Shown here piece by piece: positions 33,765 to 49,088 of a stretch of 64,000 bases of DNA. Position numbers and translations under genes: made by a program. How positions within the stretch are numbered: the stretch's first letter is position 1; each line of letters begins with the position of its first letter. The notes under the pieces are model-generated. The model saw only the letters and a program-made list of their open reading frames with translations. It was not told the origin of the DNA and ran no database searches. The DNA is from Paralvinella palmiformis (taxonomy: Eukaryota; Annelida; Polychaeta; Terebellida; Alvinellidae), in contig JAODUP010000457.1 in the NCBI GenBank assembly GCA_025642065.1, positions 462,501 to 526,500 of the forward strand. The letters are read 5' to 3'.

Positions 33765-36700
33765 ATGTCTCAAGGTGAGTGTGTGAGCTGACGGTTTGCG
33801 ATCTGGACAATGAATAGCTTATAATTACGTGGTAAATTGAGCTGCTAAAATACCTTTTAGACCCCCAGTTGGTGCTCCTGGCGCCATCTATGTTAACTTT
33901 ATATGACAGGGGCGCCACTGTTGCAAGCACATTAGCCTACTATGAAGCATCTTTTTTTTGTACCAAATGAACAAAATACACTTAGATCTATATTGTAGTT
34001 TTTACTATTCTCATTTTTGTACTTTTTAAATTTATGAAAATGATATTACCACGATTGTTAGTAATTTTAATTTATTTGCAACTCTCTCTTTCTCTCTCTC
34101 TCTATATATATATAAACTATATTGAGATTTGAGTTAGATCATATAGATGTCATAATTTCAAACTACAAAATAAGTAGTAGATCTAGACTCTACAAGTATC
34201 CAGTTAAAATTTGCCTAAGTGACTTTTCATATATAATAATCACAGCTTAATTTTGAATTAAACAATTCATAATTTCAACTGGATAGAACATTGAAAAGAA
34301 ATTAAGTTCTTGCTCATGCATGTAATCATACAGTAATGCAAAAATGAAATTGCTATCATTGACATTAACAGGCTTGCATTAATTGTCCACACATGAGAAA
34401 ATGCATAATACAGTTATTTTTATTGCAAAAACATATTGATAAAAGTGGCAGCAGTGTCATGCCCACTATTCTTATTTAAACTACATCACAGCTATATCCT
34501 CACCATTGTAAAGATGTCAGAATTGTTGTATGGCTCCACTGCTGAATCAAAATGATGTTTTTTTTCTTCATGTATTATAAATTACAATAGACCTTGCTAA
34601 CTAAATTTCACAGACTTTTACACTTTGGGTCACCGCTGGCTACAGCCCAGAGCAGCGGAGGGGAGTTTCATGGTTTTCAACGTAGGCCAGATTTTTGTTC
34701 TGAACATCTCGGTTTAAACAATGATCTGTTGTGTAATGCAATTGGAATTCAGATAGGAAAATACTTCTAGTGATAGATCATTTTCTTGTTGTTCAGCATA
34801 TTTCATTATTAAATGTTAACTGTCTTTTACTGGTCAATACTGGTCAATTCGTAAATACCTTTTTATAGAGCATTAATTTTTCAAAAATGTTTATTTTATG
34901 GTGTGGTGGCATATTGACATGCTAACCATAGTATCCCCTGAGTACATTCATATGGGGGAGGCAATTAATAATTTATTTATTCATCTATTTAACAATAGTT
35001 TTAAGAAAAATTAACTGATCGACTGTTCATTTTCATGGTTATTGTTTTATAAATAATTCAAGTTCTGCATGTTTTAGTATTTTATCACTGTTCAATAAAA
35101 ATATAAAAATTGTTTTTTAAACACTAGATAGAATGATGAGAATATATAAAGAGTGACTCAGGTATATTTTTAAATGGTGAAGAGCTTCTCTGGTGTTGCC
35201 TCTTGTTTCCTGTTCTCGGTACTGTATGAAGCTCGACGATGATGGAATGTCATATATTGGTAACTGGCTGAATAATATAAATTTCAGATGTTTCCCTGAC
35301 TGACAAAGCTGTTTCATTTAGAGATGCTGAGATGCTCACGGCACATTTGAATAGTCAGGTATGTGCATACAAATACAATACAGTCTTCCAACAAGTGACT
35401 CTGTTTATGCTGATAAATGATACGTTTGTTTTGTATGTTATGTTTATTTACCAGAGCCTTTTTTTTTAAATAAACATTCATTCAGCACAAATTAAATACA
35501 AATTTCCCCAGTGCATTCAATCAGCTAAACATACACTAATGATTTGTGACAAGAAGAAGCTGCACCGAGCTGTATGGTAAACTCAGGACAATAAAAAAAT
35601 TATATTAATGGTCCGTTTCTGTAATATTATGTAATGCTTGTACACTAAGCATCCAGGACTATTGTTGTAAGAGTTTGGACATTACTAATAATTTCAATGT
35701 TTTGACATTATTTGTCTACTCATAAAATCTTTCAACATCATCAACCCGACTTCAGGAATATTCTGTTTCTGTTCACCAGTTATATACACATAATTCACAG
35801 TAATCCATCCTGTCTTACAATACATGGTAGATTGATATGGCCAAGTCAGCCAATGATCATGTGACAGAGACAAGAAGGGTGTCAGTAGCAGCAGCAAACT
35901 GGGTACATTCCACTTTTAATTTCACTATTTAGACAGTGAGCTGCCGAGACCTAACTTAATCTATGAATGTCCACATAGGGATGCTACAGAGATGTTTTAT
36001 AGTCCAGTTTGTGATTTCCATTCATTCAAATTGACTCAGCTAAAGTTCTGTTTTCAGCTCTAATTTCCATTAAAACAACTGAATATGAGAATAATTTACA
36101 TGTTTTAATAATAATAATATGTGGCATGTATATAGCGCTCTATTCAGTTAGAAGCCACTCTAAGGTGCTTTACAATATTATTATCCCTGACTGACAGAAC
36201 CTCTAACTAACTGCGCTATCACGGCTCATTACTAATGATTCCTAATCACTAATTGATCAGTTCATGAAACATTAAATCAAGGGAGCTAACTATAACAAAC
36301 CTCATTTGAAATTTCAGTATTATTATTGTAACATTGAGATTATCTATTTTTTAACGATTTCAAGAAATCTAATTCAGCATACACGTTTAAAGTTATTTTT
36401 GGAAACTGATAATAGATTCCAATTCCTTATTGGAATTGATAACATTGTTGTTGTTTAGTGGAAAAGCTAATTTCTCAGGACTAGTATTATCAGTAGATAC
36501 TTGTTCTTCTTCAGCATGACATTGATGATCCTCATATGAAGACCTTACTATGGAAGCCACTGTCCAACCTGCAGGCTCAGCTTCCTGTTATGGATGGACA
36601 GAATTCAGTGTTGTTATCCTCGGGTGACATACAGATCACAGGTGACCAGGCATTAATGGATGAGGCCATATCATTTACTGGAAATCACCAGCCACATGAT

Positions 36701-48700: not shown

Positions 48701-49088
48701 ATCAGTGTTACTTGATAGTCATATGAATATGAAGCAAGAAGGCTTAGTTAGTGCCATAAACCAGATGGATGTCGTCATGAAGTCGGCTGATCCACTAACC
48801 ACCTACCTTCCACGACAAATGAACCAGGAACCACAGCAGGTGGCACCTGTCCCACACAATTATATTCAGCAATATACCATTCCAGAAAAGGTGCCCGTCA
48901 ATACAGAAAATGGTGCAGCAGCAACAGCAACTGGCAGCAAACAGCAAATGGCTGTTAATCTGACGCAGCCGATTCAACCAGGATCACTTCAGACTACGTT
49001 GATAATGTCTTATGGTGATGCCATGAAACTACTTGGAGCTTCTTTCCCAGATGACCAAAATACACAGGGGTCCCACACACCTGTGTAG
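33765..49088 (+). CDS. PR/SET-domain transcription factor with PLAG1-type seven-zinc-finger array
   Basis: Nine exons on the plus strand chain in phase: 33765-33774 (ATG), 35288-35358, 36515-36767, 38686-38844, 40969-41090, 43908-44060, 45889-45982, 46149-46981 and 47879-49088 (stop TAG). Allowing for one surplus base in exon 8, the protein is about 967 residues: an unstructured N-terminus (1-111), a WCEDC knuckle and PR/SET domain (about 112-285), a D/E run and poly-Ala, one C2H2-like finger (near 406), three AT-hooks, seven C2H2 fingers (about 536-737), and a Q/S/T-rich tail. The PR domain resembles PRDM10/PRDM15. The finger array and its spacing match PLAG1, a nuclear DNA-binding activator. 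It is head to head with CHCHD7, as human PLAG1 is. Likely role: sequence-specific nuclear regulator. What is uncertain is whether transcripts always join both halves, because only splice phase and order show this here. Confidence 0.88.
36829..36930 (+). repeat. (AC)50 microsatellite
   Basis: An uninterrupted AC run 62 bases after the donor of PRDM-PLAG exon 3. Confidence 0.99.
36941..37240 (+). repeat. Unnamed dispersed repeat, copy 1
   Basis: Matches 62127-62435 over about 300 bases with many substitutions: TCATAGTATTTATTG at the start, AGACTGTATGTTTC, ATCCAGCATTTAAATGA, and AGCATTATAAGTACTCCTGA near the end. No Pol III boxes or coding potential. Confidence 0.8.
37478..37790 (+). repeat. 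Three tandem copies of a ~115-bp unit, middle copy deleted
   Basis: Each unit has TTAAACATACAAT, TTGCACTTCACAAA, CATGCAGATCTAGCAAAAA and TTTAAAAACAT. Copies start near 37480, 37597 and 37669; the middle one lacks about 40 internal bases. Confidence 0.75.
38686..45982 (+). CDS. PR/SET domain exons of the PRDM-PLAG gene
   Basis: Exons 38686-38844, 40969-41090, 43908-44060 and 45889-45982. They encode, in order, WCEDCQKSMMSQCSRHGS (the zinc knuckle before many PR domains), IPSRAKLTAP, VFTRKVIQKRTQFGPYEGKL, CNWMMFVQPARTAEEQNIV, YQHRGAIYFASMK and NTQLKAWYSSEYGKWMGKS. This is the PR/SET signature, closest by eye to PRDM15 and PRDM10 (RTQFGP, NWMM, Q-G-YF, L-WY). The motifs cross all three internal splice junctions in frame, which proves the exon chain. 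PR domains of this group are generally thought to act through protein contacts; I see no strong sign of methyltransferase activity. Confidence 0.93.
39227..39318 (+). mobile_element. SINE family B, 5'-truncated
   Basis: Only the 3' body remains (GGCCCATTTAGCCTACCATG, GCCATAAAACATCAATCGTC). Located in a PRDM-PLAG intron. Confidence 0.75.
39952..40133 (+). mobile_element. SINE family B, diverged
   Basis: Degraded head, but GAAGGGTGTTTCATCTTTTG and the GAGGTCACTCGG stretch are preserved. Confidence 0.7.
41308..41366 (+). mobile_element. 3' tail of the same L2-like LINE
   Basis: GTACAGCGCCTCAGAACAGG, then GGCGCTATATAAACATGCAT and ATT repeats, match the 3' end of the LINE at 51770-52333. Only the tail is present; located in a PRDM-PLAG intron. 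Confidence 0.7.
41736..41771 (+). repeat. (CAA)12 microsatellite
   Basis: Uninterrupted CAA trinucleotide run in a PRDM-PLAG intron. Confidence 0.97.
42150..42757 (+). mobile_element. Second-type non-LTR retrotransposon fragment, frameshifted
   Basis: DLGVTFSGDLKFSIHVAKAA, NRVIGVIRRSFRYMDKDML and YNALVQAHLEYGNTVWNP continue, after a one-base shift near 42425, into LPYPDRLRALKLPSLRYRR, GDMLQTYKILH and a C-terminal end FLNAFKGRLDWSTGQRITI. It is the 3' end of an ORF2 of a different family from the L2-like copies. Located in the PRDM-PLAG intron 41091-43907. Confidence 0.85.
44948..45145 (+). repeat. Degenerate ~26-bp minisatellite
   Basis: The words TTGT-ATAAATGTTA and TGCC recur about seven times at irregular spacing. 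It lies in the PRDM-PLAG intron 44061-45888. Confidence 0.5.
45412..45466 (+). repeat. 16-bp tandem repeat, about 3.4 units
   Basis: CAAGACAACTCCTACC, CAAGACATCCCGTACC, CAAGACAACTAGTACC, then CAAGAGC. Confidence 0.85.
46149..46981 (+). CDS. Exon 8 of the PRDM-PLAG gene: acidic run, poly-Ala, AT-hooks, first PLAG finger
   Basis: The exon opens one frame (EIMRHLTQPS) and holds an Asp/Glu run (46340-46375), ten alanines from a GCA repeat (46415-46444), a C2H2-like finger starting CAQC (46502) and two AT-hook-like motifs, KRKGRPLK (46607-46630) and RRKRGRPRK (46640-46666). That frame stops at 46795. A third AT-hook, KRRRGRPKK (46752-46778), and finger 1 (CDTCGKAFGKLHKLQIH, then HTGERPF) are in the +1 frame, open from 46629 to the donor. 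So there is one surplus base, or two missing, between 46667 and 46751. The donor GTGAGT at 46982 leaves two bases of the Lys codon. Confidence 0.88.
47879..49088 (+). CDS. Last exon of the PRDM-PLAG gene: PLAG fingers 2-7 and C-terminal tail
   Basis: The exon starts by completing the TGERPFK linker and encodes six C2H2 fingers with PLAG-specific wording: SKYKLIRH, FARKDHLKNH, NPNKDNFRCAHCGKTY, LECKVCQQSF, KKHQCQYCSKMFFTKKDVQRH and YLCQFCPQAFSRRDHLVRH. The order, the irregular linkers (the long one before KKHQC) and the count of seven with the previous exon agree with PLAG1/PLAGL1/PLAGL2. The tail of about 230 residues is rich in Gln, Ser, Thr and Met and includes MKQEG, a possible SUMO site. 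Base composition is more GC-rich over the fingers than in the surrounding introns, as expected for conserved coding DNA. Confidence 0.94.

Follow-up and report, generated by a model that had tools for sequence, protein, structure and literature searches.

A PRDM10-like PR/SET domain and a PLAG-type zinc finger array head to head with CHCHD7 in Paralvinella palmiformis: likely one protein of the PLAG-ancestral kind

Human PLAG proteins are not known to have a PR domain, and their fingers lie near the N-terminus. A locus of the annelid Paralvinella palmiformis, in which a PR/SET domain is followed by seven C2H2 fingers, raises the question of whether the PLAG family descends from a PR-domain (PRDM) gene or whether the two parts were fused in a single lineage. 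The locus lies in a window of 64,000 nt, the whole stretch of DNA analysed (assembly GCA_025642065.1, contig JAODUP010000457.1, positions 462,501 to 526,500 of the forward strand), and all coordinates given here are positions in that window. It comprises nine exons on the + strand (33765–49088) with GT-AG introns, encoding a PRDM10-like PR/SET domain and a PLAG seven-finger array, and is situated head to head with CHCHD7. With its PR domain upstream of the fingers it is a PRDM-PLAG locus and not a PLAG gene of the human form, and it likely specifies one protein of the kind from which PLAG probably descends. Both presumed ancestral features, the PR domain and the CHCHD7 neighbour, are found together here.

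The finger array is of the PLAG type. Finger 1 (46896–46961) is encoded in exon 8, and fingers 2 to 7 (to 48395) in exon 9 (47879–49088), together with the tail and the stop codon at 49086. A PLAG-array model built from six arrays was scored on 208 proteins (207 retrieved ones and that of the window), of which 39 exceed 150 bits, the next one reaching 120.9. In a model built without it, the window array scores 286.2 bits, compared with 121.5 for the best non-PLAG protein and 53–65 for four PRDM10s. PLAG1 reads DNA chiefly by fingers 3, 6, and 7. Helix positions −1, 2, 3, and 6 of these fingers in the window are RDHN, TKDR, and RDHR, a set common to the window, Lingula, both oysters, five turtles, the ostrich, two beetles, and a millipede, and the array shares its seven-finger build and these DNA-reading residues with the PLAG family (PLAG1, PLAGL1/ZAC1, and PLAGL2). 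The helix residues of fingers 1, 4, and 5 are variable across the compared arrays. TKDR and RDHR are each present in 38 of the 39 arrays, the exception being the protein P0033, described below; the pair is found in none of the 169 other retrieved proteins, and RDHN in two of them. No second PLAG array was found in the genome, where that of the window reaches 399 bits and the next match 85. One such array is in keeping with an invertebrate, mammals possessing three PLAG genes according to PMC6262857. NCBIfam holds no family for the three proteins checked against it.

The PR domain (PF21549, E=5.8e-30, residues 162–293) is encoded by exons 4 to 7. Exon 4 (38686–38844), which was aligned with PRDM11 (3ray), contains a zinc knuckle (WCEDC..HG) and the lead-in to the domain, exon 5 (40969–41090) its first part, exon 6 (43863–44060) the middle with CNWMMFVQPAR, and exon 7 (45889–45982) the end with LKAWYSSEYGKWMG, the last two being placed by both the domain match and structure alignment. 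The closest solved structures are those of PRDM4 (3db5, E=1.7e-21) and PRDM10 (3ihx, E=1.3e-19). The knuckle, of the PRDM4 type (Zn_ribbon_PRDM4), is a weak match in the window (E=0.0013; 18.9 bits, where the cut-off is 25.8) and exceeds the cut-off in P0033.

A PR domain, counted at a PR-model match of E≤0.001, accompanies the PLAG array in 10 of the 38 retrieved PLAG-array proteins. These come from the brachiopod Lingula anatina (P0124), the oysters Saccostrea echinata (P0200) and Crassostrea virginica (P0201), five turtles (P0148, P0152, P0156, P0157, and P0158), and the ostrich (P0159), the tenth being P0033; P0156, P0157, and P0158 represent 20, 30, and 8 member sequences, respectively. 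A first search with the whole joined protein returned mostly ordinary zinc finger proteins, but it yielded P0033, a 937-codon frame on a 3002-base contig that is probably a transcript. The protein searches were limited, one having scored 42 candidates and another having been seeded by the window, Lingula, and turtle proteins, and the counts are therefore not an unbiased sample. The PR domains of P0152 and P0158 are partial, and P0159 has neither finger 1 nor part of finger 2. In P0200 and P0201 the PR domain contains ca. 240 extra residues, which are either a true insert or a gene-model error.

The likeness of these proteins to the window locus extends to what lies between the two parts. A degenerate C2HC finger, located in the window at 46502–46558, stands between the PR domain and the PLAG array in nine of the ten; the linker GRRTxSKRKG is common to the window and Lingula, and AT-hooks are present in the oysters. 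The alignment of the Lingula protein with that of the window spans the knuckle, GRRTxSKRKG, and the fingers, and the best match of the Lingula protein in the P. palmiformis genome is the window locus (212.6 bits versus 95.6 for the next). The Lingula protein (“PRDM10 isoform X2”) and that of Saccostrea (“PRDM10-like”) are named after their PR half, the Crassostrea one (LOC111120106) bears no such name, and all three have the same part order as the window. The turtle and ostrich PLAGL1 and PLAG1 records likewise show a single predicted protein with PR domain, C2HC finger, and PLAG array, but they differ from the window in their tail, and a strict AT-hook and the GRRTxSKRKG linker were not found in them. 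The retrieved beetle and millipede PLAG proteins, unlike the window, have no PR domain. Since oyster, lamp-shell, turtle, and ostrich records join both parts, descent of PLAG from a PR-domain gene is likely.

The preliminary description of this DNA, made from the sequence alone, had left a choice between a fusion peculiar to this lineage and descent of PLAG from a PRDM gene with loss of the PR half in vertebrates, and had proposed a search for single proteins with both domains. Such proteins are those just listed from oysters, Lingula, turtles, and the ostrich; their common part order disfavours the lineage-specific fusion, and together with the C2HC finger it favours descent. The loss in vertebrates was worded too strongly, being right in part, as PLAGL1 and PLAG1 records of five turtles and the ostrich retain the domain.

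CHCHD7 is located on the − strand and has three exons, of which exon 1 (33428–33529) begins with ATG at 33529 and has a GC donor, exon 2 spans 31325–31423, and exon 3, with the stop codon, 30888–30998; the match to human CHCHD7 (PDB 2lqt) has E=8.8e-22. Its first intron (33428, − strand) begins with GC instead of GT (GCGAGT). The start codons of CHCHD7 and PRDM-PLAG are divergent and separated by 235 bp (33530–33764), presumably a shared promoter. The same head-to-head neighbour is found in cattle, where, according to PMC5359603, PLAG1 and CHCHD7 have a common bidirectional promoter.

The remaining exons complete the transcript model. Exon 1 (33765–33774), with the start codon, is a guess: it is 10 bases long (ATGTCTCAAG), splice consistency being its sole support. 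Exons 2 (35288–35358) and 3 (36515–36767) are defined by GT-AG borders and phase. Reverse-transcriptase-like fragments in two frames, noticed by eye in the list of open reading frames, lie at 42138–42757 (+ strand) in the intron between exons 5 and 6. Exon 8 (46149–46981) codes for an acidic run, the degenerate finger, AT-hooks, and finger 1. Phases agree from exon 1 to exon 8 and again from exon 8 (frame 0) to exon 9. Within exon 8, the frame continuing the PR domain is closed by a TGA at 46793–46795, and the frame of finger 1 is open from 46629 (with a TGA at 46626), so that the C2H2 fingers and the PR domain, which belong to one protein in ten relatives, are here in the same exon but in different frames, and joining them requires a +1 frame change. 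The change is flanked by two AT-hooks, KRGRPRK (46646–46666) in the PR frame and RRRGRPKK (46755–46778) in the finger frame. It most likely falls at 46667–46751, because an AT-hook core precedes finger 1 in the finger frame, which occurred in 1.2% of 20,000 first-order Markov simulations; codon usage gave no sharp place, the posterior being spread over 46628–46781.

A micro-intron restoring the frame was considered and rejected. The stretch offers 328 GT/GC-AG pairs of suitable length; the one that scores best, of 37 bp (46792–46828), is below the usual length of animal introns, and with it the second AT-hook would not be read. That exon 8 has another copy in the genome was likewise discarded: by the matches scored across the 594-Mb assembly, exon 8 with the finger array is single-copy, the remaining 64 matches being to the acidic repeat only. 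As the segments on either side of the frame change sit in one protein in the relatives, an error of the assembly appears the likeliest cause, ahead of a private mutation or a tiny intron. The architecture given in the preliminary description is borne out in part: a complete PR/SET domain, AT-hooks followed by seven C2H2 fingers of the PLAG type, a finger array distinct from that of PRDM10, and linkage to CHCHD7 are all present. The nine exons which it called in-phase exist at their places, with GT-AG borders and matching phases, but exon 8 is open in no single frame.

Several observations weigh against the locus encoding one protein of the PLAG-ancestral kind. The assembly itself contains no single frame joining the PR and finger halves, the one-chain product is predicted from DNA, and the joined relatives are gene models, not proven transcripts. 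A PR domain is missing from 28 of the 38 retrieved PLAG proteins, which come from nine named beetles and a millipede, with 18 others, some of which may be incomplete models. In P0033 there is no C2HC finger, and fingers 6 and 7 carry different residues. The pairing of PRDM-PLAG with CHCHD7 is known here from the window locus. Finally, the PR domain of the window matches an oyster PRDM9-like protein (39.4% identity) as closely as it does PRDM10, that of Chelonia PLAGL1 stands equally near to shark PRDM10, at 49.7%, and to the PRDM-PLAG of Lingula, at 48.8%, and a single PRDM-PLAG clade is recovered in only 21% of 200 bootstrap trees, or 42% without six long rows; the approximately unbiased (AU) test on such a clade (p=0.31) does not reject it.

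The first of these points bears on the alternative that survives best, itself unlikely, in which this species has a real mutation at the frame change and its gene has been split or is in decay. It would explain why the change sits in the sole copy of exon 8, but the remaining exons with their borders, like the fingers, are undamaged, and conservation extends to the DNA-reading residues.

The trees bear on the second alternative, that a PRDM10-like PR domain and a PLAG array were joined independently in lophotrochozoans and in the sauropsid line, to which we give a slightly smaller chance. In a tree of 29 PR domains, those of PRDM-PLAG and PRDM10 form one group, immediately outside which lie PRDM4 and a Capitella protein (100/97 for the branch including PRDM4). 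The PR-domain tree, of the kind proposed in the preliminary description, places the domain beside PRDM10, but the trees alone show no single origin of PRDM-PLAG; this and the nearly equal closeness of the turtle domain to PRDM10 and Lingula speak for repeated fusion. Against it stand the same C2HC finger between the parts in oysters, Lingula, the window, turtles, and the ostrich, and the fact that the PR domain of the window is closest to that of Chelonia PLAGL1, at 51.2% identity, as compared with 37.0–39.2% for three PRDM10s (the PRDM-PLAG domains of Lingula and Saccostrea show 41.7% and 41.6%). Moreover, phenylalanine stands at the place of PRDM9 Y341 in all nine complete PRDM-PLAG domains versus one of seven PRDM10 rows. 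The case for a single origin is therefore built on the common order of parts, the C2HC finger, and the similarity between window and turtle.

Improbable to a somewhat higher degree is the production of two proteins, one with the PR domain only, closed by TGA 46793, and another of the PLAG type whose start lies within exon 8, e.g., at the ATG of MLTAY (46797). The differing frames and the PR-less majority of retrieved PLAG proteins agree with it. However, the PR frame covers the C2HC finger and GRRTxSKRKG, which directly precede the PLAG fingers in one Lingula protein, the C2HC finger is similarly placed in oysters, turtles, and the ostrich, and the finger frame contains another AT-hook before ATG 46797.

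That the locus is simply the PRDM10 of this animal is hardly credible: the names under which databases list the relatives from Lingula and Saccostrea and the position of its PR domain beside PRDM10, the closest PR-domain family in the tree, would suit it, but the four PRDM10 arrays are different from that of the window on the PLAG model (see above), Chelonia possesses both PRDM10 (P0177) and a PR-bearing PLAGL1 (P0156), and CHCHD7 is the neighbour. The genome's own PRDM10 was sought among eight loci (L001–L008), and no clear one was found there. Nine separate PR-domain matches form a local cluster over ca. 72 kb on a contig of the genome (C1847, 779240–850759).

Elsewhere in the window, an open reading frame at 26161–26868 (− strand) contains a KPWE domain (PF17733, E=1.3e-12) and is PEX14-like, of the PEX39 type, and another at 15531–15917 (− strand) contains a CARD domain (PF00619, E=2.1e-12). 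Two DHO_dh matches on the − strand, at 53942–54214 (E=6.3e-8) and 54662–54979 (E=2.1e-4, below the cut-off), are probably exons of dihydropyrimidine dehydrogenase.

In the literature covered, no paper joining PLAG with a PR domain or PRDM, nor one on the origin of PLAG, was found; Vervoort et al. 2016, on Prdm evolution, is outside that coverage, and an earlier description is possible. The word “PLAG” is absent from the mollusc PRDM paper PMC10451705, from PMC2082429, and from the C2H2 survey PMC2889900.

The answer to the question posed by the locus is that the PLAG family is probably a branch of the PRDM family, derived from a CHCHD7-paired PRDM-PLAG gene whose inheritance was split between PLAG1 and PLAGL1, with the PR half lost independently in mammalian and beetle PLAG. 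A single PRDM-PLAG gene, with CHCHD7 as its probable partner, would have been present in the common ancestor of molluscs and vertebrates; of the vertebrate duplicates, PLAG1 would have lost its PR domain while keeping the CHCHD7 promoter, and PLAGL1 would have retained the PR domain in turtles and the ostrich. Fingers 3, 6, and 7, which share their DNA-reading residues with PLAG from turtles and beetles, are predicted to recognise a GC-rich site of the PLAG type, candidates for the array being GRGGC(N)6-8GGG and GGGGCCCC; the consensus of PLAG sites is GRGGC(N)6-8 followed by a G-rich part according to PMC6262857 and PMC9811725. Recruitment of chromatin regulators to such sites is the predicted role of the PR domain. 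In PRDM9, the tyrosines Y276, Y341, and Y357 matter for catalysis, and loss of one residue is no proof of inactivity, according to PMC5519329. At these places the window has Y, F, and Y, and does not possess the PRDM9-type catalytic set; among the nine complete PRDM-PLAG domains, Y357 is retained in all and Y276 in four. Because phenylalanine replaces Y341, methylation of the PRDM9 type is doubtful, and our best guess from these residues is that the domain is likelier to recruit than to methylate in the PRDM9 manner.

PLAG1 and PLAGL1 have roles in growth, tumours, and imprinting. If PLAG is a PRDM protein deprived of its PR half, PRDM biology becomes a base for understanding PLAG function, turtle and ostrich PLAGL1 would be a natural test of the role of the lost domain, and PRDM inventories in which such proteins are filed as PRDM10 or PLAGL1 would require a new class.

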